Source of the DNA: an uncultured Gemmiger sp.
Lineage (GTDB): Bacteria; Bacillota; Clostridia; Oscillospirales; Ruminococcaceae
Direction: 5' to 3'
DNA: 36,151 bases
Assembly (NCBI GenBank): GCA_944382785.1
Contig: CALWNO010000026.1
Span: 1-36,151 of the forward strand
In this document: positions 521-15,490 of the stretch, piece by piece
How positions within the stretch are numbered: the stretch's first letter is position 1
How the letters are laid out: each line of letters starts with the position of its first letter
Made by a program: the position numbers and the translations under genes
The notes under the pieces: generated by a model
Told to the model about the DNA's origin: nothing
Seen by the model: the letters and a program-made list of their open reading frames with translations, nothing else
Database searches by the model: none

Positions 521-2335
521 ATGAATGTATTGTTTGCAGGACCGTGGGATTTGGCGGGCAAAACCACGGCGGAATATTTTTTACGGGAAGGGCATGAGGT
601 TTGCTGGCTGACGCAGGAAAGCAAACGCGCCTTATGGGACACCAAATTCAAAGGGACGGTATATCGGGGGCAGTTTACCGTTCAGCAGGTCCGGTCCTTT
701 CTGCAAGCCCACCGCGTGAACGTGGTGATCGTTCTGACAGCAGGTTTACGGGAAGGCACTGACCTTTGCCCGGACGAGGCCCCCTCCCTGTTAGGAAACC
801 TTCTTGCCGCTCTGCGGGAACACCCGATACATTCCTTTGTCTATCTTTCCTCGGTCGAACTGTTCTGGCAATCGCCTCTGACTCCACGGCAAGCCGCTCT
901 GGCATCCGACGAATTGCGCTGCCAGGCCAGCCGGGATTATGATGGGTTGCCCCTGCTCATTGTACGGTTGGGGTATCTTTACGGACGAGCGGCACCGGAG
1001 GACATGGGCGTGACCGGAGCGGCTCTAGGGGCCATCCGCCGGCAGCATCCCATCCGGTGTGCCTACAGCCCGGAGGACTGTATCGACGTACTGACCGCCA
1101 CCGATGCAGCGGCGGCCATCTACCGCATGGTTGTGCATGCTCTGACCGGCTGTTATCTGTTGGTTACAGGGCACCCCATCTCTCTGCAGACCTATTATCA
1201 TTGTCTGGAACAGGCGGCGGGCCGCCCCGCCGTGATTGAATGGGCGGGAGAACGCCATACCATGGAGGCGTCCCGGTATTCCGCTGAGCCTATCAAAACC
1301 GCCACCGGCTGGATGCCCTTTACCCTGCTGGAAGAGGATGGCTGGCAATTGCTGCAAGATGCGGCAGACACCCCCCGTGACCAACCGCGGGCCACCTCCA
1401 GGCTCCGCCTTCCCCATCCCGCACTGCGCAGCACTGTGGAAATGCTGGCCCTGTTCGGCATCACCCTGCTGCTTCTGCGCTTTTCCAAGGATGTATCCGA
1501 TCTCAAATATGTAGACATCCGGCTGATGTTTGTGGCCGTGATCGCCAGCGGCTACGGCAGCGGCATGGGGATGGCAGCCGTGGCGCTGGCCTGTATCTCC
1601 TATCTGTACAGCCTGGCAGCCTCCTATGTAGATATCAGCTATCTTCTTTACAGTGTGGATACCTGGGTACCCTTTGTGATTTACGCGGTCACCGGTTCGG
1701 TGCTGGGGTACCTGACCGGCCGCCGCCGGGACGAAGTGGAAGGGTTGCTCCGCAAAAACCGACTTCTGACCGACAAATTTGACCAACTGCAGGCCGTGCA
1801 GGGAGAAACCCTGGAAATCAAGACCCAACTGCAGCAGCGCATTGTGGCGGAGCGTCACAGTTTTGCCGATCTGTATCGCATTGTACAGGAACTGGACGCC
1901 CTGAACCCCCAACAGATTTTCCTGCACACGGTGGGCATTGTGGAAGATCTGCTGCAATGCAGCCATGTGGTGGTTTACCGCATGAAACCCGACGGCATCC
2001 GTGCGGAGTTGGCGGCCTGCTCAGATGCGATGCAGGATCGCGCCCCCACGGAGCCCAACGGGGAAAAATTGTCGGTTTTGTGCGAATTGCTGGCCCGGCG
2101 ACCGGTGTTTGTCAATACGACACTGACCCCTGGCTTCCCCGATCTGGCCGCCGCCATCCGCTGCAATGACCGGCTGTACGGCATCGTGGCGGCCTATGAG
2201 CTGGACCCGGAGCGCTTCACCACCTATTATCAGGATCTGCTCAAGGTGGTGGTAGGGCTGATCGAACGGGATCTGATGCGGGCCCTGCATGCACCGCACC
2301 GGGAAGCCGCCTGTGCAGGGGAGGTGAACCTGTAA
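521..2335 (+). CDS. pelD: Epimerase-like/PelD-like membrane sensor fusion
   Basis: 604 aa, start chosen at ATG 521 because AAGGGAGA stands 7 nt before it. Residues 1-290 are an extended-SDR/NAD-epimerase fold (VLFAGPWDLAG at 3-13, YLSSVEL at 108-114, LLIVRLGYLYG at 145-155). The glycine motif has Asp in place of the middle Gly. The expected YxxxK pair seems replaced by Leu127 and Glu131, so this half is probably not a normal epimerase. Residues 305-400 hold about four membrane segments, 400-445 a coiled coil, and 450-590 a GAF-like domain, as in PelD. Pseudomonas PelD has a further degenerate GGDEF domain that binds c-di-GMP; here the protein ends after GAF. The inferred role is regulatory scaffold of the glycan synthase, perhaps sensing a nucleotide or nucleotide-sugar through the epimerase fold. 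The stop overlaps the next ATG (TAATG). Confidence 0.75.
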   Translation: MNVLFAGPWDLAGKTTAEYFLREGHEVCWLTQESKRALWDTKFKGTVYRGQFTVQQVRSFLQAHRVNVVIVLTAGLREGTDLCPDEAPSLLGNLLAALREHPIHSFVYLSSVELFWQSPLTPRQAALASDELRCQASRDYDGLPLLIVRLGYLYGRAAPEDMGVTGAALGAIRRQHPIRCAYSPEDCIDVLTATDAAAAIYRMVVHALTGCYLLVTGHPISLQTYYHCLEQAAGRPAVIEWAGERHTMEASRYSAEPIKTATGWMPFTLLEEDGWQLLQDAADTPRDQPRATSRLRLPHPALRSTVEMLALFGITLLLLRFSKDVSDLKYVDIRLMFVAVIASGYGSGMGMAAVALACISYLYSLAASYVDISYLLYSVDTWVPFVIYAVTGSVLGYLTGRRRDEVEGLLRKNRLLTDKFDQLQAVQGETLEIKTQLQQRIVAERHSFADLYRIVQELDALNPQQIFLHTVGIVEDLLQCSHVVVYRMKPDGIRAELAACSDAMQDRAPTEPNGEKLSVLCELLARRPVFVNTTLTPGFPDLAAAIRCNDRLYGIVAAYELDPERFTTYYQDLLKVVVGLIERDLMRALHAPHREAACAGEVNL

Positions 2336-3246
2336 TGCCCTGGTTTTTGCCGACAGTCAGTGGACTGTACTTTCTGTTTTGTCTTTTGTATGCCCGGGCC
2401 GTGGCCTGCCGGGCAGAAAGCCTGCAAAAAGGCCTGTTTTGTCTTGTCCTGTGCCTCGCTCTGCCGGGGGCAGGGCCGCTGCTGCTCTGGTTTTACGATT
2501 TCTGTACCCGCCACACAAAACCGGCAGACTATACCGAATTCTGCCACGGCGGGGAATTTTGTCCCGACGATCTGCACCAGCTTCAGAAGCCGGACCTTCC
2601 TGCCGAAACCGACCGTGTGCCCATGGAGGAAGCACTACTGGTATCTGACCTTACTTACCGCCGGGAGATGGTGATGAGGCTGCTGGATGCGCAAGATCCC
2701 CTGCTCTGCCTGCCGGCGCTGCGCCGGGCCCTGGCCAACGAGGACAGCGAGACTTCCCATTATGCCAGCGTAGCCATTATGGAACTGCGGCGCAAACTCC
2801 AGCAACAGCTGGACGAGGCTGAATCCCGATGGCGCCAGGGGCCCCGGGATACCGACGCCTGCGCCGCATGGGAGGAACTGCTCTACAAGGTCATACAGAC
2901 GGATCTGTTTGACCGGGATGTTCGCCGTCGGCTGCTGCGCCGCCACACCGCTCTGACTGATCAGATGCTGCGCACCGCCCTGCCGCCCGAAACCTGTCTG
3001 CACCATCGAATCCGCATGGAGTTGCAGCAGGGACATTATTCCCAGGCCCAGCGGCTCTGTGCCCGGTATCTGGATATCTACCCCCACAGCGAGCAGGCGG
3101 TGCGGGACCAGATGGAGGTCTGTGTACAGGCCAAGAACGGGGCGGGCCTGCGCACTTTTTTATATAGTCTGCGTGACCGCCCGGTATTGCTTACGGCCTC
3201 TACCCTGGCCTGGGTCCGGGCATTCAGAAAAGAGGGACCCCAGTGA
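2335..3246 (+). CDS. pelE: PelE-like membrane/TPR protein
   Basis: 303 aa. The ATG overlaps the stop of the pelD-like gene by one base. Two membrane segments (about residues 5-22 and 33-54) are followed by an acidic linker and a helical, repeat-like C-terminal half. The stretches at 220-255 (LHHRIRMELQQGHYSQAQRL and following) look like TPR helices. This matches the architecture of PelE, which bridges PelD and the polymerase PelF in the Pel inner-membrane complex. The assignment rests on architecture and position between PelD-like and PelA/PelF-like genes, because PelE sequences are poorly conserved. It presumably sits in the cytoplasmic membrane with the TPR part inside. Confidence 0.65.
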   Translation: MPWFLPTVSGLYFLFCLLYARAVACRAESLQKGLFCLVLCLALPGAGPLLLWFYDFCTRHTKPADYTEFCHGGEFCPDDLHQLQKPDLPAETDRVPMEEALLVSDLTYRREMVMRLLDAQDPLLCLPALRRALANEDSETSHYASVAIMELRRKLQQQLDEAESRWRQGPRDTDACAAWEELLYKVIQTDLFDRDVRRRLLRRHTALTDQMLRTALPPETCLHHRIRMELQQGHYSQAQRLCARYLDIYPHSEQAVRDQMEVCVQAKNGAGLRTFLYSLRDRPVLLTASTLAWVRAFRKEGPQ

Positions 3247-5108
3247 ACAAAAATTGCAAAAACCTAATGGTCCTGCTCGGCCTGTGTGTAGCCTTTGCCG
3301 TGGTGATTCTTATCAGCAACAACGGCATGACCCTGCGAGGACTGACCATGCAGCCCGCGTCGGCCGCGGTGGCACTGCTGGACGAAGCAGACAGTGAACC
3401 CTTGCAGGTCACCGAAGCAACCAGCCCCCAAGCGCTGGTACTGTACAGCCCTCAGCGGCAGGATTCGGTGGAGTATGAGGAAAATGTCCGCATTGCCCTG
3501 AAACACCTGCGCATTGAAGCGGACACGCTGGAACTGGCGCGCACCCAAAGCGTCAGCTATACCGACTACGAAATGGTGATTCTGGCTTCGGCTTACTGGG
3601 AGGAGGAGCTGACCGATTCTGCCGCCCGGCTGATGAATTATGTGGAAAGCGGCGGCAAACTTCTGCTGGCTACCGTGCCGGAATCCATCGGGACCCAGTT
3701 TGATGCCAGTTACCGCCGCATGGGCATCGTGGATTTCGGAGATTATCTGAACTACAACTCCATCACCTTTGCCCAGGAGCTTCTGCCCGGTCTGACGGGG
3801 CGATCCTTCTCCGGCGAAACCTTCGCTGATGTGGCGTTATCGGTCACGCTGGAAAACAGTGCCCGGGTCTATGCCTGGGCCGAAGACGCCGAGGGCCGCC
3901 GCACGCCGCTGATCTGGTCCTATGACTGTGGGCAGGGACGGGTGACGGTGTTCAACTCCACTTCCGGCAGGGGGGACTTCTGGCGGGGGATTGTGGCGGG
4001 GTGCATCAACACCCTGTCCGACACGGTCATGTACCCGGTCATCAACGCCCTGTGCCTTTTCATCGACGATTTTCCCTCGCCCCAGTACGAGAGCGAAAGC
4101 GATGTGGTGCGGGAAGAGTACAACCGTTCAGCCCGGGAATTCTACCGTGATATCTGGTGGCCGGACATGCTGCAGATTGCCAACGCCTACGGGGATGTGT
4201 ACACCGGCCTGTTTGTGGCGACCTACAACGCGGAGACCGACCCGGCCAGGCAGACCTACACCGAGTCTTCCACCGAGTTGTATTTCGGCAACAGCCTGCT
4301 GAAAAACGGCTATGAAATGGGTGCCCACGGCTACAACCACCAGCCGCTGACCCTGGCCGGGGGTACTCCCGACGAGCTGCACTATACTCCCTGGGCCTCC
4401 GTTCAGAACATGACGGCATCGCTGCAAACACTGCGTGACATCACAGCACAGCTGTTTCCGGCGGTGACCCTGCGCAGCTATGTGCCACCCTCCAACTACC
4501 TGAGCGATGAAGGCCGCCGGGCGGTGTTGGAAGCTCTGCCCGAAGTGGAAGTAATTTCGGGCATTTATACCGACGAGGAGGAGGAAGGCCAGGTGTATGT
4601 ACAGGATTTCACTGTGGCGGAGGACGGCATTGCCGAGTTTCCGCGGGTGACTTCCGGCATGGCGCCGGATGATTATGAGCAGATGTCCGCCTTCAGTGCC
4701 CTGGGGCTTTACGGCGTGGTTTCTCACTTCATCCATCCCGATGACATTTTTGACGCCGAGCGCGGCGGCGGCAAAAGCTGGGAGGAGCTCTACCGCAGCT
4801 ACTGTGCGTGGCTGGGTGATCTCCATGAGACCTTTCCCTGGCTGCGTGCGCTGTCGGCCACCGAAGCCGGGGACGCCCTGCGCATCTGTGACGCAGCGGT
4901 ACCGCATCTTCTGTTTGAGGAAAACCAGATCACCGGCAGTGTGGAAAATCTGCTGGGGCCGGTGAGCTTTTATCTGAAAACTGACCGTACTCCCAGGGCG
5001 GCGGATGACGCCTGCACCATCCGCCGCATCAGTCCCGGGAACGGCGGCGGCTATTATCTGGTTACGGTACAGCGTCCCAATTTTACCATAAGGCTGGTGA
5101 CCGCATGA
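3243..5108 (+). CDS. DUF2194 polysaccharide-deacetylase-like membrane protein (PelA deacetylase counterpart)
   Basis: 621 aa. It starts at GTG 3243, overlapping the previous stop as GTGA. There is one N-terminal membrane anchor (residues 8-25). The first half, residues 60-250, resembles a glutamine-amidotransferase-like/Rossmann domain. The second half is a carbohydrate-esterase-4-like barrel with the metal motif IDDFPSP (Asp275-Asp276), HGYNH (His362 and His366) and VSHFIHPDD (His495, His498). In Pel systems PelA deacetylates the polymer; in Gram-positive Pel clusters a stand-alone deacetylase gene occupies this position. I infer deacetylation of an N-acetylhexosamine-containing glycan at the outer face of the membrane. 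No PelA-type hydrolase domain is present in this protein. Confidence 0.75.
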   Translation: MNKNCKNLMVLLGLCVAFAVVILISNNGMTLRGLTMQPASAAVALLDEADSEPLQVTEATSPQALVLYSPQRQDSVEYEENVRIALKHLRIEADTLELARTQSVSYTDYEMVILASAYWEEELTDSAARLMNYVESGGKLLLATVPESIGTQFDASYRRMGIVDFGDYLNYNSITFAQELLPGLTGRSFSGETFADVALSVTLENSARVYAWAEDAEGRRTPLIWSYDCGQGRVTVFNSTSGRGDFWRGIVAGCINTLSDTVMYPVINALCLFIDDFPSPQYESESDVVREEYNRSAREFYRDIWWPDMLQIANAYGDVYTGLFVATYNAETDPARQTYTESSTELYFGNSLLKNGYEMGAHGYNHQPLTLAGGTPDELHYTPWASVQNMTASLQTLRDITAQLFPAVTLRSYVPPSNYLSDEGRRAVLEALPEVEVISGIYTDEEEEGQVYVQDFTVAEDGIAEFPRVTSGMAPDDYEQMSAFSALGLYGVVSHFIHPDDIFDAERGGGKSWEELYRSYCAWLGDLHETFPWLRALSATEAGDALRICDAAVPHLLFEENQITGSVENLLGPVSFYLKTDRTPRAADDACTIRRISPGNGGGYYLVTVQRPNFTIRLVTA

Positions 5109-6562
5109 AAATCTGTTTGATTGTGGAAGGATGTTACCCTTATGTGGTGGGCGGTGTTTCGGCCTGGGTGCAGATGCTGATCCGGCAGATGCCGGAACAC
5201 CAGTTCGCCCTTGTGTCCATTGGGGCGCAAAGCAACCAGCGGGGTCAGTTTCGCTATGAGATTCCATCCAATGTGACCGAGCTGCGGGAATATTTTCTGG
5301 ATGAACCCATCGGCTCCACCGATTTTTCCTCTCCTGCCCAACCACTGACACAGGCCCAGCGGCAGGCCCTGCTGGATCTGGTACAGGGCACCGCGCCGGA
5401 CTGGGTCCCGTTGTTTGAACTGTTCGGCGGCGATCATCCCCGCCCGGTGCAGGATTTTCTGATGTCGGCGGATTTTCTTGCCCTTGTGCAGAGCCTGGCC
5501 GAAAGCTCCGGCCGTAACGTTCCCTTCAAAGATCTGTTCTGGACGCTGCGCTCCATGCTGCTGCCGGCGCTGGAACTGCTGCGCTGCCCGGTGCCTGAAG
5601 CCGATGTCTACCACACGGTGGCCACCGGGTACGCGGGATTGCTGGGGGCCAAATTCAGTTACTTTGCCCGCAAGCCCTTTCTTGTGACCGAGCACGGCAT
5701 CTACACCCGGGAACGGGAGGAAGAAATCCTGAAAGCTGACTGGGTACCGGGGTACTTCAAGCCAACCTGGATCGGATATTTCCGGGCACTGAGCCAGGCG
5801 GCATACCGGCAGGCTTCCACCATCGTCTCTCTGTTCCGGGGCGCTCGGGAATTGCAGATTAGCCTGGGGGCCGACGAGCAGAAATGCCGGGTCATTCCCA
5901 ACGGTATTGATATCAGCCGTTTTGCGGCCATTCCGCCCTTGGACCCGGCACCCCATCCGCTGCATATCGGAGCGGTGCTGCGCATCGTTCCCATTAAAGA
6001 CGTAAAAACCATGATCTACAGTTTTCACCGCATCAAATCGGCGCGCCCTGATGCCACCCTGGATCTTATCGGCCCCTATGACGAAGACCCCGACTACTAC
6101 CGGGAATGCCAAGATCTTATCCGGCGGCTGGACTGCAAGGACATTCGGTTTGTGGGCCGCGCCGACGTGACCCGGTGGTTGCCCAAGCTTGACCTGGTGA
6201 TTTTGACCAGCATTTCCGAAGGCCAACCCTTTGTGCTGCTGGAAGCCATGGCCGCCCACCGCCCGGTGGTGGCCACCAATGTGGGCTCCTGCCGGGAAAT
6301 CATCGAGGGGGCGGACGATGGCCTTGGCCCGGCAGGCCGGGTGGTACCGGTGATGAGCCCTGCCGCCATTGCAGAGGGGATTCTTGCCATCAGCCGCAGC
6401 CCGGAACAGCTGCGCGCCCTGGCGGAAAACGGTTATCGCCGGGTGGTACGTTTTTATCAGGACAAAGACTTTCTGGCGGCCTACCGGGCCCTATACCAGG
6501 AAGCCGTTCGCAAACCGGACAGGGAGGTGGCACGGTCATGGCAGGCATCGGCTTTGGGCTGA
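5105..6562 (+). CDS. pelF: PelF-type GT4 glycosyltransferase (exopolysaccharide polymerase)
   Basis: 485 aa, soluble. The ATGA overlap with the preceding gene suggests translational coupling. The N-terminus MKICLIVEGCYPYVVGGVSA and the TEHGIYTRER segment (195-204) are typical of PelF, a GT-B fold family 4 enzyme. The nucleotide-sugar binding EX7E motif is intact in SEGQPFVLLE (Glu372, Glu380), followed by PVVATNVGSCREII. PelF uses UDP-activated N-acetylhexosamine (UDP-GalNAc/GlcNAc in characterised Pel systems) and works with PelD, PelE and PelG at the membrane. Length and motifs are normal for the family. The sugar used here is not known. Confidence 0.92.
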   Translation: MKICLIVEGCYPYVVGGVSAWVQMLIRQMPEHQFALVSIGAQSNQRGQFRYEIPSNVTELREYFLDEPIGSTDFSSPAQPLTQAQRQALLDLVQGTAPDWVPLFELFGGDHPRPVQDFLMSADFLALVQSLAESSGRNVPFKDLFWTLRSMLLPALELLRCPVPEADVYHTVATGYAGLLGAKFSYFARKPFLVTEHGIYTREREEEILKADWVPGYFKPTWIGYFRALSQAAYRQASTIVSLFRGARELQISLGADEQKCRVIPNGIDISRFAAIPPLDPAPHPLHIGAVLRIVPIKDVKTMIYSFHRIKSARPDATLDLIGPYDEDPDYYRECQDLIRRLDCKDIRFVGRADVTRWLPKLDLVILTSISEGQPFVLLEAMAAHRPVVATNVGSCREIIEGADDGLGPAGRVVPVMSPAAIAEGILAISRSPEQLRALAENGYRRVVRFYQDKDFLAAYRALYQEAVRKPDREVARSWQASALG

Positions 6563-8019
6563 AAAAAGTTTTCCGCGGCAGCGGTATCTTTGCGGTGCTG
6601 CGGGGGTATTCCCTGGCTGCCGTGGTTACCGAAGGCCCCATGGTCCTGATGATCCTGCTTCTGTTTGCCATGCAGCAGCTGCTGGCAGGATTCGGAGCGG
6701 TGTACCGGGTGCGGGAACAGTTTTTGTTCTTTATGCCCCACACCATGATCTTTTCGCTGCTGCTGGCGGGGGTCGTACTGCTCTTTCTGGACCGGTTCAT
6801 CTCAGACTGTATGTATCAGCAGCGCCTGCAGGATGTGCTGCCCGCCCTTTTCGGCATGGTATTCTTCCTTCTGCTGGTCGGGGCCCCCATCATGGGGCTT
6901 TACCTGCTGACCCTGCCGGTGGGATGGGATGTGCGGCTGGCGGTGCAGCTTTTGTTCTGCACCCTGCTGGTCATCTGGGTACAGATGTCCTGCCTGTCCG
7001 CCGTCAAGCAGTATACCTATCTGTTGCTGGGCTTTGCGACAGGGGCCGCGTCGGCCCTGCTGCTCACATGGCTCTTTCTGCTGGGCGGGATACATCCGCT
7101 GACTGCCGCCTTATGGGGCACGGCACTGGGGTTTCTGGTGCTGTTGTTTTTGTACATGGCACAGCTTTTGCAGTGCTATCCCACCGGGGGATGGAATCTG
7201 CTGGTGTTTTTCCCGGCACTGCAACGCTATCCCGATCTGCTGCTTACCGGGCTTTTGCTGGGGCTGGGGCTTTACAGCCACAATTTTGTTTTCTGGGCCA
7301 GTGGGTACAAGGTCCGGGTCTTTCCTGCCGGTGTCTATTGCACGCGGTATGACGTGCCCGCCTTCTTCGCCACCCTGACCATCCTGCCCATGCTGGTACA
7401 GTTCGTGGTGGGGCTGGAAACCCGCTTTGCAGCCAAACACCGCGCCTTCTTTGACGCCATCCTGTATGGTGGGCGGCTGGAGGACATCCGGGCTGCCAAG
7501 CAGGAGATGGAGTCAGTCCTGTATGCAGAACTTGCCCACATGCTGCAGATGCAGCTTATTGTGGCCATCGCTTCGGTGGCTTTTCTGGGCAACTTTTTGC
7601 AGACCATGGGCCTGGATGAGACCATGACCGGCACCTTCCGGGTGCTCTGCTTCGGCTACTGCCTGTACGGTCTTGTCAAATGCGGCATCGTACTGCTGCT
7701 CTATTTTGACGACCGCACCGGTGCCTGTCGGGCGGCGGGACTGTTTGCCGGTCTGAGTCTGGCAGGCTCCCTTGTCACCCTGGTCCTGGGTCCGGACACC
7801 TGGGGTGCCGGATTCCTGGCGGCAGGCGCCATCACCGGATTCCGGGTCCTGCAGCGGCTGCGCCGCTATCTGGCAGACCTGGAATACCACGTATTCTGCG
7901 AACAGCCCTTGTTCGCACAACCGCAGCACGGCGTGTTCTGCCGCGCCGAGGAACACCTGGCCCGGATTGACCGGGCTTTTGCACAAAGGAGGCATCCCCG
8001 TGAAAAGAACCGGGAATAA
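6538..8019 (+). CDS. pelG: PelG-type polysaccharide transporter (MATE-like)
   Basis: 493 aa, about 12 membrane segments. The start MAGIGFGLKKVFRGSGIFAV is the PelG family signature. It overlaps pelF by 25 nt. PelG is a flippase-like member of the MOP superfamily that moves the growing glycan made by PelF across the cytoplasmic membrane. In the Gram-negative systems PelB and PelC then carry the polymer through the envelope. Neither is encoded here, as expected for a cell without an outer membrane. Confidence 0.9.
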   Translation: MAGIGFGLKKVFRGSGIFAVLRGYSLAAVVTEGPMVLMILLLFAMQQLLAGFGAVYRVREQFLFFMPHTMIFSLLLAGVVLLFLDRFISDCMYQQRLQDVLPALFGMVFFLLLVGAPIMGLYLLTLPVGWDVRLAVQLLFCTLLVIWVQMSCLSAVKQYTYLLLGFATGAASALLLTWLFLLGGIHPLTAALWGTALGFLVLLFLYMAQLLQCYPTGGWNLLVFFPALQRYPDLLLTGLLLGLGLYSHNFVFWASGYKVRVFPAGVYCTRYDVPAFFATLTILPMLVQFVVGLETRFAAKHRAFFDAILYGGRLEDIRAAKQEMESVLYAELAHMLQMQLIVAIASVAFLGNFLQTMGLDETMTGTFRVLCFGYCLYGLVKCGIVLLLYFDDRTGACRAAGLFAGLSLAGSLVTLVLGPDTWGAGFLAAGAITGFRVLQRLRRYLADLEYHVFCEQPLFAQPQHGVFCRAEEHLARIDRAFAQRRHPREKNRE

Positions 8020-9766
8020 GATCACGATCTTCCTGTTGGCGGCACTGGCGTTACTGGCACTGGCCGCAGCATCGGGCGCGGCCTTTCTCCGGCAGGCTGC
8101 CGCCCCCGCTCCGGAGGACGCCCCCTCCCCCGCGTCCGAAGCGACCGCAGCACCGAAAACCGTGCAGGACATCAACACCGTGGGCATGACCGAAAACAAA
8201 AGTATTTACAGTGAGGATGACCCCCAGAGCCTGGTGTACTTCTATGTCACCGTACAGCGGGGCGACGCCGGTTCGGACACCGACCATTCCTTTGCCCAGG
8301 TCAACAGCGCCGTTCGCTTTGCGGAGGACAGCCATGTGGACAACGACATTCTGGCCCGGGCGATCGTGCAGGTAGGCAATGCCGACGGGCCTCAGCCCGG
8401 TATGCTGGGCTATGATGCCACCGAAAGCAATGCCACCATCCGGGTACGGGGAAATTCGTCCTCGGTACGGCCGCAAAAATCCTACAAGCTGGATCTGGAC
8501 GACGAGGCCGGACTCTGGCGCGGGCAGAGCAACATTGCCCTGAACAAGCACAATTTCGACGCCACCCGGCTGCGCAACAAGCTCTATTTTGACCTGCTGC
8601 GCCCGGTGGAGAATATTTCCAGCCTGCGCACCCAGTTTGTGCGGCTGTATATCAAGGACGAAACGGCAGGCGAGACCTCCTTCACCGACTACGGGCTGTT
8701 CACCCAGGCGGAGGTACCCACCAAAAAATATATGGCCAACCACGGTCTGGATTCAGAGGGGTATCTGTACAAGGCTATCAGCTTCAATTTCGAAATGTCC
8801 GACGCCCTGAAGAACTTCGATGACCCGGAATTCGACCAGGCAGCCTTCGATCAGATTCTCAGCTGCAAAGGGCGGCAGGACAACCAGAAACTCATCGATC
8901 TGGTCAACCTCATTGCCGACAGGAGCGTGGATATCAACGAGATCGTGGGCAACTACATAGACCGGGACAACTATCTGACCTGGCTGGCTTACAACATCCT
9001 GATGGGAAACAACGACACCACGGTACAGAATTTCTATCTGTACAGCCCTCTGAACAGTCAGAAGTGGTTCTTCATCCCCTGGGATGGCGACAACTGCCTG
9101 CACTGGCAGGAAGACGAGCTGGAGGGACTGACCGGCAACTACGGCAGTTGGGAGCATGGCGTGGCCAACTATTGGGGCGTACTGCTCCACCAGCGCTTTT
9201 TGAAAAACGAGTCCAACCGGGCCGAACTGGCTGCCAGGGTGGACGAACTGCATGAAACCATCAACCGGGACACCGTCAACGCTCTGGCCCAACAGTACGA
9301 CGAGGTGGTGCGCCCCTATGCCCTGGCCATGCCGGATTTCTATTACCTGGGCAACACAGCCCAGGAACGGGACGCCATTCTGGCCGGTCTGGGGGACCAG
9401 GTGGAACTGGCATATCAGCAGTTCTACGACAGCCTGCATGAGCTGATGCCCTTCTTCATGTATCAGCCGGTGCAGGAGGACCAGACCATCCTGTTCCGGT
9501 GGGAGGATGCCTACGACTTCGACAATCAGCCCATCACCTATCGGCTGCAGGTGGCCGCTACACCGGACTTTGCCGCCCCGGTGGTGGATGTGTCCGGGCT
9601 GACCAGCACCGAATACCCGGTGTCCGCCGCCCAGCTGCCTGCCGGGACCTGGTATTTTGCAGTGACCGCCGAGACCCAGGATGGCCGCACTGCCCCTGCC
9701 ATGAACAAAATCCAGGTCAGCGACGTGTACTATCCCGGCGTGGACCGTACGGAGGTGACCTTATGA
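8000..9766 (+). CDS. CotH-family kinase-like secreted/membrane-anchored protein
   Basis: 588 aa. I chose GTG 8000 because AAAGGAGG lies 7-8 nt before it; the gene then overlaps pelG by 20 nt. There is a membrane anchor or signal segment at residues 8-30, followed by a Pro/Ala-rich linker. The CotH domain spans about 70-480: ATIRVRGNSSS (145-155), RPQKSYKLDL (157-166), LNKH (181-184) and the metal motif FIPWDGD (358-364). CotH proteins are atypical protein kinases; Bacillus CotH phosphorylates coat proteins. Residues about 495-575 form a fibronectin-III/Ig-like domain. Immediately downstream are VTC-like and DUF4956 genes, a trio that recurs with CotH genes. Substrate unknown: protein, glycan or teichoic-type polymer. 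Confidence 0.85.
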   Translation: MKRTGNKITIFLLAALALLALAAASGAAFLRQAAAPAPEDAPSPASEATAAPKTVQDINTVGMTENKSIYSEDDPQSLVYFYVTVQRGDAGSDTDHSFAQVNSAVRFAEDSHVDNDILARAIVQVGNADGPQPGMLGYDATESNATIRVRGNSSSVRPQKSYKLDLDDEAGLWRGQSNIALNKHNFDATRLRNKLYFDLLRPVENISSLRTQFVRLYIKDETAGETSFTDYGLFTQAEVPTKKYMANHGLDSEGYLYKAISFNFEMSDALKNFDDPEFDQAAFDQILSCKGRQDNQKLIDLVNLIADRSVDINEIVGNYIDRDNYLTWLAYNILMGNNDTTVQNFYLYSPLNSQKWFFIPWDGDNCLHWQEDELEGLTGNYGSWEHGVANYWGVLLHQRFLKNESNRAELAARVDELHETINRDTVNALAQQYDEVVRPYALAMPDFYYLGNTAQERDAILAGLGDQVELAYQQFYDSLHELMPFFMYQPVQEDQTILFRWEDAYDFDNQPITYRLQVAATPDFAAPVVDVSGLTSTEYPVSAAQLPAGTWYFAVTAETQDGRTAPAMNKIQVSDVYYPGVDRTEVTL

Positions 9767-10461
9767 ATCCCGCCTACCGCCATGAACTGAAATACCTGGT
9801 GAACCAGAGCGAATACCGCCAGTTGCAGACTGTGCTGCACTCCCTGCTGGGACACGATGCCCACGCAGGCCCCGGCGGCGAATACAATATCCGCAGCCTC
9901 TACCTGGACGACCTCTACCATACCGCCTACCGCCAGAAGATGGCTGGAGTGGAGGTGCGCAAGAAATACCGGGTGCGCATCTACAACTGTGCGGACCGGC
10001 ATATCGCACTGGAATGCAAGTACAAAAACGGCGCTTACATTTATAAAAAGTCCGTTCCCCTTACGATGGCGGAATACGGTGCCCTATGCCGGGGACACTT
10101 CGGCTTTCTGCTGCAAAAGCCCCAGCCTATGGCCCGGCAGTTCTTTCTGGAAGCCCGGGCCAACATCATCCGCCCCTGTGTGATCGTGGCCTATGACCGG
10201 GAAGCCTTCGTCAACGATGTGGGCACCGTGCGCATCACCTTTGACAAAACCCTCACGGCCATGGCCCCCCGGCAGGATCTTTTTGACCCTGAGGCGTCCG
10301 GTTATCATGTGCTGCCTCCAGGACAGATGATTCTGGAAGTCAAGTTTACCGGCATTCTGCCGGAGTACATCCAAAGTATCTTTCGCGCCTACTCCTTTGT
10401 CAGGACATCGGCCTCCAAGTTCTGCCTTTGTGCGGATCAGGTCCGGCATACCCTGGGATGA
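9763..10461 (+). CDS. VTC-domain (polyphosphate polymerase-like) protein
   Basis: 232 aa, ATGA overlap with the CotH gene. It has a complete triphosphate-tunnel fold signature: RHELKYLV (6-13), RSLYLDD (44-50), KKYRVRIY (67-74), LECKYK (83-88), YDREAF (144-149), VRITFDK (156-162), LEVKF (191-195) and SKFCLC (218-223). These supply the basic and acidic tunnel residues used by VTC4 to make polyphosphate from ATP. The protein is soluble without SPX or membrane parts, so any membrane contact would be through the DUF4956 neighbour. Inferred role: nucleotide triphosphate-dependent polyphosphate or phosphoryl-donor production serving this envelope glycan locus. Confidence 0.85.
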   Translation: MNPAYRHELKYLVNQSEYRQLQTVLHSLLGHDAHAGPGGEYNIRSLYLDDLYHTAYRQKMAGVEVRKKYRVRIYNCADRHIALECKYKNGAYIYKKSVPLTMAEYGALCRGHFGFLLQKPQPMARQFFLEARANIIRPCVIVAYDREAFVNDVGTVRITFDKTLTAMAPRQDLFDPEASGYHVLPPGQMILEVKFTGILPEYIQSIFRAYSFVRTSASKFCLCADQVRHTLG

Positions 10462-10492
10462 GCAGCGCGCCGTGCAGGAGGAATCTTTCATC

Positions 10493-11164
10493 ATGACCTT
10501 TCAAGATCTGTTCAAAAAATCCGCGTTGGAACTGTTTCCCAACCAGATTGACCCCTTGACCCTGATCCTTACCCTGGTCATCGCCTTCCTCATCGGGATG
10601 GGCATCTTTGCGGTCTACCGTCGCTGCTTCATCGGCGTGGTGTACGACCATGCCCTGAATCTTTCCCTGGTGATCATGACCTTGCTGGTGGCCGTGATCA
10701 TCGTCACCATCAGCACCAACATCACCCTGTCCCTGGGTATGGTGGGCGCGCTCAGCATCGTACGCTACCGCACCGCCGTCAAGAATCCACTGGACCTGAT
10801 GTTCCTGTTCTGGGCCATCACCTCCGGCATCGCCATCGGGGCGCAGTATTACTACATCGCCTTTGTGGCCTGGATTGTGGTCACCCTGGCCCTGGTCTTT
10901 CTTAAACGGCTTAAGGGCAACGCGGGCACCTATGTTCTTATTGTAACCTATCGGTCCGACCCCGATGTGGAGGAGGCCATTCGCCGCTGCCTGCACGACC
11001 AGCCGGGCAAATTCCGGTCCAAGGTGGTCAAGGGCGGCACCACCGAGCTGACTATGGAACTCTACCTGAAAACCGACAACCTGAACATTACCCAGCCGGT
11101 ACAGAACATTGACGGGGTGCAGGATGTCACGCTGGTGGAGTACCGGGGTAATCTGGAGGCATGA
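10493..11164 (+). CDS. DUF4956 membrane protein
   Basis: 223 aa, start at ATG 10493 preceded by AGGAGG, 31 nt after the VTC gene. There are membrane segments at about 22-41, 57-78, 102-116 and 119-137. The family hallmark LGMVGALSIVRYRTAVKNP occupies residues 81-99 between segments. A soluble C-terminal domain of about 80 residues (146-223) has an ACT/MgtC-C-like look. The function of DUF4956 is not established. Its constant company with CotH and VTC genes suggests a membrane partner, perhaps coupling polyphosphate synthesis to transport or to the outside of the cell. Confidence 0.82.
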   Translation: MTFQDLFKKSALELFPNQIDPLTLILTLVIAFLIGMGIFAVYRRCFIGVVYDHALNLSLVIMTLLVAVIIVTISTNITLSLGMVGALSIVRYRTAVKNPLDLMFLFWAITSGIAIGAQYYYIAFVAWIVVTLALVFLKRLKGNAGTYVLIVTYRSDPDVEEAIRRCLHDQPGKFRSKVVKGGTTELTMELYLKTDNLNITQPVQNIDGVQDVTLVEYRGNLEA

Positions 11165-12537
11165 TGCAGGCCCGCCGATGGATTCCGCTGCTTCTGCTGG
11201 GGCTGCTCCTGGCGGCCGCCGCCCTGCTGCGGCTGCGCATCCCACTGACAGCGGAAGAAATTCCCGCCTCGAACAAGCCGGTGACCAATCCCATGAAGGG
11301 ACTGGCCGCCTGGGGGGAGAACTACCGACAGGACCCCTATGTGTCCTTTGCCTATGTGCCGGTGTACTGGAATGAGCTGGAACCCCGACAAGGAGAATAC
11401 GACTTTGCCTCCCTGGAAGAGCGCTGCCACTTTGCCCAGTGGCGGGCCGACGGGGTGCGGCTGATCCTGCGCCTGGTGCCCGATACTCCCTCTGAGGAGC
11501 GGCACATGGATATCCCCCAATGGCTGTACGATGCCATGGACGGTGCGGGGACCTGGTACGATGGGGACTACGGGCAGGGGTTCAGCCCCGACTATGAAAA
11601 CGAGCTTTTCCGTCAGGCGCACCGGGCGCTGATCACCGCCTTGGGGCAGCGGTATGCCGATGACCCCCAGGTCGCTTTTATCGAGCTGGGCAGTCTGGGG
11701 CATTGGGGAGAATGGCATGTGGATACCGGCGCAGGCATCGCCCCCTTCCCCACCCAGACAGTCACCGACGGTTATGTACAGGATTACCTGGCCATTTTTT
11801 CCCCGGACCGTCTGCTGCTGCGCCGCCCCTATACAATCGGGCGGGACCACGGATTGGGATTGTATAACGATTCCTTCGGTCTGCCGGGGTCTCATGAAGA
11901 ATGGCTTTCCTGGATTTCCGACGGCTACCAGTCCGACCAGAACGGCGAGTGGCTGCCCGGTATGCCGGATTTCTGGCGTTCGGCTCCTTTCGGCGGAGAG
12001 TTTTCCCCCCAGCAGGAGGACGCCTGGTATTTTAGCGCTGATCAGTTTCCCACCACATTGGCTTTGCTGCAACAAAGCCACACCACCTTTCTGGGCCCCA
12101 ACGCCCCCGCTTACGGGGAGCTTTCCGGCACTGAGGCGGACCATTTGCGCACCTTGCTGGCTGAGATGGGCTACACCCTGGGGGTGCGGGATTGCAAGCT
12201 CTGGCGCGCCGCCTTTTCCCGGGCCTTGCAGGCGGAACTCACCTGGGAGAATACCGGCCTGGCCCCCTTGTACGCCGACTGGCCCGTTGCGCTGGAACTG
12301 CGGGACGAAACCGGTCAGACCGTATGGTCCGGCCAGGCAGACGCCCCCTTCTCAGACTTGGGACCCGGCCGCCACACTCTCACCTTTTCCCTGCCCGGTG
12401 CAGGGGCACTGCCCGGTGGGACCTACACTCTCTGGGTGGGTATCACAGACCCCTTGACCGGGATTCCGGGGGTGGCTTTGCAGATGGAAACGGAGCATGA
12501 TGGGGCTCTCTATCGTGTCGCAACGTTCTCCCTTTGA
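11161..12537 (+). CDS. Membrane-anchored DUF4832 glycosidase-like protein
   Basis: 458 aa. ATG 11161 overlaps the DUF4956 stop; the second ATG at 11164 fits the GGAGG spacing slightly better. A signal anchor covers residues 7-25. A TIM-barrel glycoside-hydrolase-like domain follows: NPMKGL (43-48), VPVYWNELEP (66-75), LRLVPDT (103-109), FIELGSLGHWGEWH (173-186) with candidate acids Glu175 and Glu184, and GGEF around Glu280. The C-terminal 100 residues are a beta-sandwich. As the last gene of the operon it may cut or trim the polymer at the cell surface, standing in for the hydrolase half of PelA. Activity is inferred from fold features only. Confidence 0.72.
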   Translation: MMQARRWIPLLLLGLLLAAAALLRLRIPLTAEEIPASNKPVTNPMKGLAAWGENYRQDPYVSFAYVPVYWNELEPRQGEYDFASLEERCHFAQWRADGVRLILRLVPDTPSEERHMDIPQWLYDAMDGAGTWYDGDYGQGFSPDYENELFRQAHRALITALGQRYADDPQVAFIELGSLGHWGEWHVDTGAGIAPFPTQTVTDGYVQDYLAIFSPDRLLLRRPYTIGRDHGLGLYNDSFGLPGSHEEWLSWISDGYQSDQNGEWLPGMPDFWRSAPFGGEFSPQQEDAWYFSADQFPTTLALLQQSHTTFLGPNAPAYGELSGTEADHLRTLLAEMGYTLGVRDCKLWRAAFSRALQAELTWENTGLAPLYADWPVALELRDETGQTVWSGQADAPFSDLGPGRHTLTFSLPGAGALPGGTYTLWVGITDPLTGIPGVALQMETEHDGALYRVATFSL

Positions 12538-12696: not shown

Positions 12697-13773
12697 TTAC
12701 AGCAGGTGGAGGCTTTCTTTTTCAAAGACGACCCAGGCGCTGTCGCCCACGTTATAGATCTTCTTGTTTTTGGGGTTGAAGTCGGTGATCTTGATCATGG
12801 TATTGCCCACCATGACATGATAGTTCTGGTAGGAACCCATGAAGCAGGACATAATCACCTTGCAGGGCAGCTGCCCCTGGTCAGCCAGAACGGCAGACTC
12901 CGGCCGGAGAACCAGGGTACATTGCTTGCCTTCCTCCAGAGCAGCGGCTCCCACCACATCCACAGGGTTTCCTTCCACGGTCACAACGGCGGAATCCCCC
13001 TGTTTGTGGGACAGCGGCCCCCGCAGGAAGTTGGCTTCCCCGATGAAGTCTGCCACAAACTCGTTGGCAGGATGATAGTAGACATCCTGCGGGGTTCCGA
13101 TCTGGGTCACCACACCTTTTTCCATGATGATGATCTTATCGGAAAGAGCCATGGCTTCGGACTGGTCGTGGGTGACATAAATGGCCGTGATCCCGGCCTC
13201 CTGCTGGATACGGCGGATCTCGGTGCGCATGGTTACACGGAGCTTGGCATCCAGGTTGGAAAGGGGTTCATCAAACAGCAGCACGCCCGGTTCCAGAACC
13301 AGGGCACGGGCCAATGCCACACGCTGCTGCTGGCCGCCGGACAGCTGGTTGGTCATCCGCCCTTCCATTCCTTCCAGGCCCACCAGCTTCAGGATATTGG
13401 TGACCTTTTCCTGGATGGTATGCTTGTCCAGTTTGCGCAGCTTCAGGCCATAAGCCACATTGTCGAAAATATTGTAATGGGGCAGCAAGGCATAACTCTG
13501 GAACACCATGGCGGTATCCCGCTTATTGGGGGTCAGGGCATTGATGGGCTCCCCGCCCAGATAAATCTCCCCTTCATCGGGACTTTCAAAGCCGGCAATC
13601 ATCCGCAGGGTCGTGGTCTTGCCGCAGCCGGAAGGTCCCAGCAGCGTCACAAAAGAGCCGGGCTCGATTTCCAGTTCGGCATCTTTGACGGCGTAAAAGT
13701 CTTTTCCTGTTTTGGGGTCCTTATAAATCTTGGAAATATGTTCCAGGCGTACGCCCTTTTTTTCTTTGGCCAT
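12697..13773 (-). CDS. ABC transporter ATPase (PotA/FbpC class)
   Basis: 358 aa; RBS GGAGG lies in the end of the permease gene, with a 1-nt gap. Walker A GPSGCGKTT (46-54), signature LSGGQ (144-148), Walker B VLLFDE (164-169), switch His202. A C-terminal TOBE-type regulatory domain spans about 240-358. It energises import together with the permease and binding protein encoded upstream on the same strand. This class serves polyamines, iron(III), thiamine or aminoethylphosphonate; sequence alone does not decide which. Confidence 0.92.
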   Translation of the reverse strand: MAKEKKGVRLEHISKIYKDPKTGKDFYAVKDAELEIEPGSFVTLLGPSGCGKTTTLRMIAGFESPDEGEIYLGGEPINALTPNKRDTAMVFQSYALLPHYNIFDNVAYGLKLRKLDKHTIQEKVTNILKLVGLEGMEGRMTNQLSGGQQQRVALARALVLEPGVLLFDEPLSNLDAKLRVTMRTEIRRIQQEAGITAIYVTHDQSEAMALSDKIIIMEKGVVTQIGTPQDVYYHPANEFVADFIGEANFLRGPLSHKQGDSAVVTVEGNPVDVVGAAALEEGKQCTLVLRPESAVLADQGQLPCKVIMSCFMGSYQNYHVMVGNTMIKITDFNPKNKKIYNVGDSAWVVFEKESLHLL

Positions 13774-13774
13774 T

Positions 13775-15490
13775 TCACTCTACCTCCTTGAGCTTGTGGC
13801 TGGTCCCGAAATACTTGATGACCAGATTCATCAAGAGGACAGAGCCATAGGTGATAACAATCAGGATTGTGGCAAAGGCACAGGCAATGCCGTAAGAGCC
13901 CTTCTCCGCGAATTCGTTGATCTGGACGGTGATAAGCAGGAACTGAGGCGTAACCAGCAGAATAATGGCGGAAATGGCCGTGATGCTGCGCACAAAAGCC
14001 GTGACCAGGCCGCTGAGGAAAGAATCCTTGATCAGCGGCAGTGTGACCGTCATGAACACCTGGAAACTATCGGCGCCCATATCGTAGGCGGATTCCTCAA
14101 TGCTCTTGTCGATCTGCCGCAGGGCAGAAATGCCGCTGCGGGTACCGGTGGGCAGAGAGCGCACAATAAAGACAATGATCAGGATGGCGGCACTGCCATA
14201 GATGCCGGACAGGAAGCCGGTACCGAACACACCGTTCACAAAGCCCCGGATATAGCCCACGCCCAGGACGGTGCCGGGCACGGCCATGGCCAGCATGGAA
14301 ACGAATTCAATAAAGCCTTTGGAACGGAAGTTCCGCTTGACCACCAGGTAGGAGATGATCATACTCAGCAAGGCCGTAATGGGAGCCGAAGCCAGGGACA
14401 GCAGGAAGGAGTCGCGGAACGCCTGCAGGCCCTTGTACTTTTCAAAGACGCGGATGAACCACTTGGGCGTCAGGGTGAAATCGTAGCCCCAGGTATTGAA
14501 ACAGGCACCCAGGGGAACACAGATATACATCAGGACAACGAACAGCGCCACCAGAGAGCACAGGATGGTCAGAGGCAGGGTCACGCTCTTGTCCTCAATA
14601 AGCATACGGGCCCGGGACGCCTTGCCGGTCAGGGTGGCAGCGGTCTTTTTCTCCAGCACATATTTCTGCACCAGATACATGAGCATGGTAATGCTCAGCA
14701 GGACCACGGCCATGGCGGCGGCGCCCTGTTTGTCGTACGCACCCGTGATCTGCAGATAAATGGTGGTGGCCAGGGTGTCATAGGAACCGCCGATGATCAT
14801 GGGGTTGGCGAAGTCGGCAATGGATTCAATGAAGGTTACCAAAAATGCATTGCCGAGGCCCGGCAGAATCAGAGGCAGGGTCACACTGGTGAACACCTTG
14901 AAGCGGGAAGCGCCCATATCCCGGGCAGCCTCTTCCAGGCTGGGGTCGATGTTCTTCAAAAGGCCCTTGAGCATCATGTAACACACAGGGAAGAAGGTCA
15001 GGGTCTGTACAACAGAAATGCCGCCAAACCCATAGACGCTGTTATCATAGATCTGCAGAAGATACCGGGTGATAATGCCCGCCTTGCCGAACAGCATGAT
15101 CATGGAAAGGGAGAGCACAAAGGGGGGTGAGACCACAGGCAGCATGGAGACTACCTGGAACAGCCTGGCGGTGAACTTGGTGCGGATCTTGACGTAAACT
15201 TCCACATAGGCAAACAGAAGGCCGATCATGGTGGACAGAATGCCCACGGTAAAACCGACTTTCAAGGTGTTGGTGATTGCCTTGCGGAAGCTGGGCATCT
15301 GGAAAATCCGCTCAAAGATAGACAGGGTGAGGCCGGTATCCTGACCATAGACACTGTCCACCAGCAGAATTGCCAGAGGGTAAAGAATAAACAGCGTCAG
15401 AAAAGCGATCAGAACAATGATGGTCGTGACCATAATGGGGTCTGCCAGCATCTTTTTCCGGTCCAATGCCGCGCTCTGGCGACTGGCCAT
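13775..15490 (-). CDS. Fused double-domain ABC permease (FbpB/AfuB-like)
   Basis: 571 aa with about 12 membrane segments. Two complete permease domains are fused, each with its own EAA loop for ATPase contact: SLEEAARDMGASRFKVF in the first half and SIEESAYDMGADSFQVF in the second. Iron(III)-type (FbpB/AfuB) permeases are commonly built this way. The start ATG 15490 has AGGAGG 9 nt upstream. It is separated from the binding-protein gene by 78 nt containing a hairpin. Confidence 0.9.
   Translation of the reverse strand: MASRQSAALDRKKMLADPIMVTTIIVLIAFLTLFILYPLAILLVDSVYGQDTGLTLSIFERIFQMPSFRKAITNTLKVGFTVGILSTMIGLLFAYVEVYVKIRTKFTARLFQVVSMLPVVSPPFVLSLSMIMLFGKAGIITRYLLQIYDNSVYGFGGISVVQTLTFFPVCYMMLKGLLKNIDPSLEEAARDMGASRFKVFTSVTLPLILPGLGNAFLVTFIESIADFANPMIIGGSYDTLATTIYLQITGAYDKQGAAAMAVVLLSITMLMYLVQKYVLEKKTAATLTGKASRARMLIEDKSVTLPLTILCSLVALFVVLMYICVPLGACFNTWGYDFTLTPKWFIRVFEKYKGLQAFRDSFLLSLASAPITALLSMIISYLVVKRNFRSKGFIEFVSMLAMAVPGTVLGVGYIRGFVNGVFGTGFLSGIYGSAAILIIVFIVRSLPTGTRSGISALRQIDKSIEESAYDMGADSFQVFMTVTLPLIKDSFLSGLVTAFVRSITAISAIILLVTPQFLLITVQINEFAEKGSYGIACAFATILIVITYGSVLLMNLVIKYFGTSHKLKEVE

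Follow-up and report, generated by a model that had tools for sequence, protein, structure and literature searches.

A Gemmiger PelD with a degenerate epimerase-like domain and no GGDEF-like tail: a probable class IV scaffold of a Gram-positive Pel synthase

What kind of PelD begins with an epimerase-like domain and stops before the domain that binds c-di-GMP in its relatives, and what may control a Pel synthase built around it? This question is raised by the first gene of a pel operon in the window, by which we mean the whole 36,151-nucleotide stretch of DNA from an uncultured Gemmiger sp. that was analysed. A preliminary description, made from the sequence alone, had proposed a degenerate epimerase fused to a truncated PelD and, from this, a new mode of Pel control. 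According to our analysis, the gene product is probably a class IV PelD, a membrane scaffold for a Pel synthase complex of the Gram-positive type. Its GGDEF-like tail would have been deleted in an ancestor of one Gemmiger clade, and its SDR domain would be a pseudoenzyme. The features of the gene and of its operon, all on the forward (+) strand, are as follows.

521-2335, +: pelD open reading frame, 604 amino acids; ATG start with GGGAG upstream, no internal stop
521-1384, +: PelD residues 1-288, degenerate extended-SDR (epimerase-like) domain (Pfam, model, Foldseek, alignment)
1415-1744, +: PelD residues 299-408, membrane helices (weak DUF4118 match, model)
1745-1885, +: PelD residues 409-455, coiled-coil portion of helix 379-458 (model)
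1907-2266, +: PelD residues 463-582, GAF domain (Pfam and model)
2285-2335, +: PelD residues 589-604 and stop, short variable remnant; tailed relatives run about 110 residues or more further (GGDEF-like, RxxD)
2335-3246, +: pelE, TPR-like, weak match
3243-5108, +: pelA-DA, DUF2194, deacetylase-like
5105-6562, +: pelF, NF038011, E=3.9e-117
6538-8019, +: pelG, PF16933, E=8.6e-112
7772-9766, +: cotH-like kinase gene, mechanical reading frame; real start probably close to 8020
9499-10461, +: VTC-domain gene (polyphosphate polymerase-like), mechanical start
10397-11164, +: DUF4956 / MgtC-like membrane protein gene, mechanical start
11161-12537, +: DUF4832 gene (glycoside-hydrolase-like), profile match

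Pfam recognised in the PelD an Epimerase domain (PF01370, E=1.9e-8, residues 12-206), followed by a weak DUF4118 match under its curated cut-off (E=3.1e-4, residues 308-406) and a GAF domain (PF01590, E=4.4e-8, residues 463-582). The AlphaFold2 model (mean pLDDT 83.5) predicted an SDR domain, membrane-type helices, a single long helix (379-458) and a GAF fold; as its pTM was 0.51, the orientation of the domains to one another is uncertain. The best Foldseek matches of this model in the PDB were UDP-sugar epimerases (2p5u, E=1.1e-15). Reading frame, Pfam, AlphaFold2 and Foldseek thus confirmed that an epimerase-like domain and the membrane, coiled-coil and GAF parts of a PelD share one frame, as first described.

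According to profile matches, the operon reads pelD-E-A(DA)-F-G-cotH-VTC-DUF4956-DUF4832, and the eight genes other than pelD are all open. The pelD stop codon and pelE overlap by one base, the last of the former being the first of the latter, and no DNA separates the two genes. A pelDEADAFG operon with accessory genes is the context of a class IV PelD. It is followed directly, on the minus strand (12697-15490), by genes for a 358-aa ATPase of an ABC transporter and for a protein of 571 aa that contains two stretches of permease domain. In two related loci, L057 and L067, a tandem pair of cotH-like genes was found inside the pel operon. A plasmid search with the PelD gave no match.

After the GAF fold, the model of the window PelD contains one helix (568-600) with a low-confidence end (593-604) and no further domain. 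The final 17 residues, beginning with Ala588, contain no RxxD. A concealed GGDEF fold, the finding that would have overturned the proposed truncation, was therefore rejected. The last residues resemble the beginning of the tail of L086, a PelD from the same genus.

To place this C-terminus among its relatives, PelD loci were collected in two ways. A protein search gave matches in 9 of the 148 genomes of the family and in 9 of the 35 of the genus. PelG matches over the cut-off were present in 12 of the 394 genomes of the order and in 13 of the 398 of the phylum; of the 12 phylum genomes besides the window's own, 10 were fetched. Left out were L057, whose contig stops short of pelD, L081, which duplicates the record of L009, L087 with its broken frame, L125 (a piece without pelD), the PelG matches of G820 and G835 and those under the cut-off, as well as L066 from alignment A3, and L062 and L066 from alignment A4. 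Of the intact PelDs with a readable C-terminus, 30 (21 from the order, nine from the phylum) have a tail at least about 100 residues long, and six are tailless, namely those of the window, L009, L082, L083, L084 and L085. G534 adds a seventh tailless copy, in which the frame is broken. The comparison with tailed relatives agrees with the model that the window PelD stops after its GAF domain.

RxxD is present in all 21 order tails and in all nine phylum tails, the latter unaligned. In 20 order tails (without L066), the R, the D and a second R are invariant, the second R lying 31 residues on in L086. These residues correspond to R363, D366 and R395 of Bacillus cereus PelD, which are described as needed for c-di-GMP binding (Whitfield 2020, PMC7112168). 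The window PelD lacks this receptor signature, RxxD plus a second Arg in a GGDEF-like domain. As Pfam recognised GGDEF in only one of 27 PelDs (E=0.0059), the identity of the tail rests on the motif, on weak profile matches and on predicted secondary structure. The best PDB matches of the tail profile were GGDEF chains, weak throughout (best E=0.0078), with no PelD chain among them, and the L086 model shows a tail in the order strand-helix-hairpin-helix-strand. Foldseek with this model returned SDR-family chains only among the best 50 matches. The GGDEF-like domain of B. cereus PelD is reported to be missed by sequence tools as well (Whitfield 2020, PMC7112168).

Relocation of the tail to another place in the genome was rejected. 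Searched up to E=0.1, all six tailless genomes were without a match to the tail profile, with the known tails of G525 and G534 recovered as controls; in the drafts G526, G528 and G000, which are 82-93.6% complete, a moved tail could escape detection.

In an IQ-TREE tree of 27 PelDs trimmed before the tail (midpoint root; 13 of the 27 rows of unusual residue make-up), the six tailless proteins form one clade with support 100/100, and the tailed L086 is its sister, again with 100/100. In the sampled set, tail loss has a single origin, which maps within Gemmiger. The PelD of Gemmiger formicilis An812 is 82% identical to that of the window. G534 carries two pel operons, a tailless one (L087) with the pelD frame broken near residues 291-304 and one with a GGDEF-like tail (L088); this draft is 81% complete with 1% estimated contamination, so that one contig is possibly mis-binned. 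Simple pairwise estimates of dN/dS among the six tailless PelDs (dS 0.37-1.2) lay at 0.15-0.42 in the SDR domain, at 0.08-0.26 in the membrane part and at 0.16-0.28 in coiled coil and GAF taken together. The SDR domain is under purifying selection. Across the membrane part (residues 299-408), 68 of 110 positions are invariant in these six proteins and L086, and the last 16 residues of the tailless proteins vary freely.

The architecture itself has precedents in print, and the control mode proposed in the preliminary description can therefore not be called new on its account. Degenerate SDR-PelD fusions are described in streptococci, clostridia and actinobacteria, with loss of the GGDEF domain given as specific to streptococci and with the same accessory genes (Whitfield 2020, PMC7112168). 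The PelD of Streptococcus intermedius is assigned to class IV, and its pelD is required for Pel (mBio 2025, PMC12345266). As published, streptococcal class IV PelDs share with the window protein a degenerate N-terminal SDR, membrane helices, a GAF domain and the absence of GGDEF, and streptococcal pelDEADAFG operons carry accessory genes of the cotH, polyphosphate-polymerase, DUF4956 and DUF4832 types. The window PelD combines four features of the class: altered SDR residues, membrane helices with GAF, no GGDEF, and the operon context. Its host differs, Gemmiger being a member of the Clostridia, as does the loss within a genus; the likeness is one to published descriptions. The Gemmiger tail loss most likely arose separately from the streptococcal one. 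What is new here is the mapping of tail loss inside Gemmiger, the layout with degenerate SDR and without GGDEF being already known from streptococci. Searches of the literature found no paper on PelD and Gemmiger, and no further PelD paper under PelD, GGDEF, Clostridia, Streptococcus and SDR; the review PMC7890745, which the mBio paper cites for the classes, may list further class IV members, and the word epimerase is absent from the main text of the companion survey PMC7112194.

Other PelDs depart from that of the window in one part or another. The clostridial L086, L062 and L063 have the same SDR-membrane-GAF order, a dead SDR and the same operon type, but keep the GGDEF-like tail with RxxD and the second Arg. 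Pseudomonas aeruginosa and B. cereus PelD share the membrane and GAF core and the PelDEFG context; unlike the window PelD, they have no SDR and possess a c-di-GMP-binding degenerate GGDEF domain. PelDs with an intact SDR, L117 (2536-4818, G660) and the resembling Brevibacillus type published in Whitfield 2020, also follow the SDR-membrane-GAF order, L117 differing by its intact GxxGxxG and YxxxK and by its tail. In L054 (11322-14153, G347) and L066 (5444-8545, G140), an extra N-terminal HD-GYP-like domain (HDIGK, HHE, GYP) precedes SDR-membrane-GAF-GGDEF. Such a PelD is predicted to be a c-di-GMP phosphodiesterase fused to a c-di-GMP receptor.

The SDR domain was examined in an alignment of 33 PelD rows, with seven SDRs of the window's own genome and the intact PelD epimerase L117 (motifs GGYGFIG and SPYGINK) as references. 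The Asp reported earlier within the glycine motif was found again: in G7-x-x-D10-x-x-G13, D10 (548-550) replaces the middle Gly of GxxGxxG. R123 (887-889) stands in the column of the catalytic Tyr and L127 (899-901) in that of the Lys. The preliminary description was right that the YxxxK pair is lost, and four residues off in naming Leu127 and Glu131 as the replacements; Glu131 corresponds to the Glu at Lys+4, and a profile alignment to 4zrm placed Tyr, Lys and Glu concordantly. Compared with L117, T31 (611-613) occupies the strand-2 Asp position for NAD, a column of lesser weight, with Asp in none of the seven own-genome SDRs; Y152 (974-976) takes the Asn position and I188 the Arg position, where two of the seven also lack these residues and less weight is due. 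The Tyr-Lys pair was present in one of the 33 rows, L117. The protein thus retains the SDR fold without YxxxK or GxxGxxG, the hallmarks of a UDP-sugar 4-epimerase, and the replaced Arg123/Leu127 positions suggest a catalytically dead epimerase.

Could the pseudo-SDR have taken over from c-di-GMP as a ligand sensor, with NAD(H), a UDP-sugar or another small molecule as allosteric input? The fold is retained under purifying selection, and the Rossmann strand ends show a mild excess of residues that are invariant in a clade of nine members (13 of 50 versus 27 of 235; one-sided p=0.0098, post hoc). Compared with the opposite strand ends, however, the enrichment was not significant (p=0.17), and the same columns showed no extra conservation in 17 other PelDs. 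Besides the catalytic pair, most NAD and sugar-site residues are replaced; with the Gly, Asp, Tyr, Lys, Asn and Arg of L117 all exchanged, control by NAD(H) or a UDP-sugar, as had been suggested, is unsupported. Relatives carry a dead SDR alongside the c-di-GMP tail, and the SDR therefore did not arise as a substitute for c-di-GMP. Taken as a whole, the sensor is unlikely. The strand-end conservation leaves room for a different ligand in a remodelled SDR fold. A bolder version, in which the synthase is uncoupled from c-di-GMP in a c-di-GMP-making host and a pseudo-SDR with a rebuilt pocket reads another metabolite and gates Pel, seems quite unlikely.

Alternatively, c-di-GMP might still govern the operon through another receptor or through transcription. 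The window's genome (2.68 Mb, 111 contigs) has six GGDEF matches, three with intact motifs and two degenerate, the sixth combining SGKEF with an HD-GYP domain. An EAL domain shares a frame with two of the copies, an intact one and a degenerate one (C68); EAL and HD-GYP were identified by eye from the sequence. Against this route, PilZ had no match in the window's genome, and the Pfam matches to the nine products of the operon included no c-di-GMP receptor domain. Strong GGDEF matches, by our own threshold of E below 1e-20, occur in three of the seven tailless genomes, the window's included (the one of the three in which the motifs themselves were read), and the other four have weak matches only. 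The proteins read at these weak matches lack the motif, with RLEDGLF or RLEDGVF in G556, G526, G532 and one G528 protein, and RMDGDKF in its place in the second G528 protein. Such a detour for c-di-GMP is, in our judgement, very unlikely.

Among tailed genomes, 19 of 21 have strong GGDEF matches, the exceptions being G059 and G525, the latter with its tail kept and a single weak match (RLEEGLF). The difference from the tailless genomes gave p=0.02 in Fisher's test, an unfair test with G534 in both groups and the genomes related. Streptococci are reported to be without diguanylate cyclases, unlike the three tailless Gemmiger hosts with strong matches; tail loss in Gemmiger is therefore not a simple consequence of an absent signal. 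Tail loss despite c-di-GMP as a general rule was likewise rejected, with strong matches in just three of the seven. In Gemmiger, the association between a lost receptor tail and a thinned-out set of c-di-GMP enzymes is loose, not strict. A conserved degenerate GGDEF protein (RLE[DE]G[LV]F for RxGGDEF) was seen in six Gemmiger genomes, the window's among them (L027, L090-L093, L095), with about 270 residues in most copies.

The broken frame in G534 and the scarcity of PelD matches in the genus (9 of 35) might suggest decay of the truncated PelD and gradual loss of the operon. This is extremely improbable: dN/dS among the six intact copies lies well below 1 in all three parts, and the eight other operon genes are open in the window.

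We thus return to a class IV PelD with a pseudo-SDR as the probable explanation. The ancestor of one Gemmiger clade would have lost the c-di-GMP-binding GGDEF-like tail by deletion. The window PelD would then no longer answer c-di-GMP, and the PelDEFG complex would therefore run without this switch, with the pseudo-SDR there chiefly for structure or for contacts between proteins. Such a complex would then be controlled through transcription or through accessory products, for example the DUF4956 protein. In S. intermedius, deletion of SIR_1592 (MgtC and ACT domains) is reported to raise Pel, and the control of streptococcal Pel without c-di-GMP is stated to be open, with c-di-AMP and ppGpp named as candidates (mBio 2025, PMC12345266). 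Judging by its weak MgtC match, the window DUF4956 protein may be the counterpart of SIR_1592.

Gemmiger offers a natural comparison within one genus, with similar operons with and without the receptor tail, both of them in the draft G534. The roles of the tail and of the pseudo-SDR are therefore directly testable.
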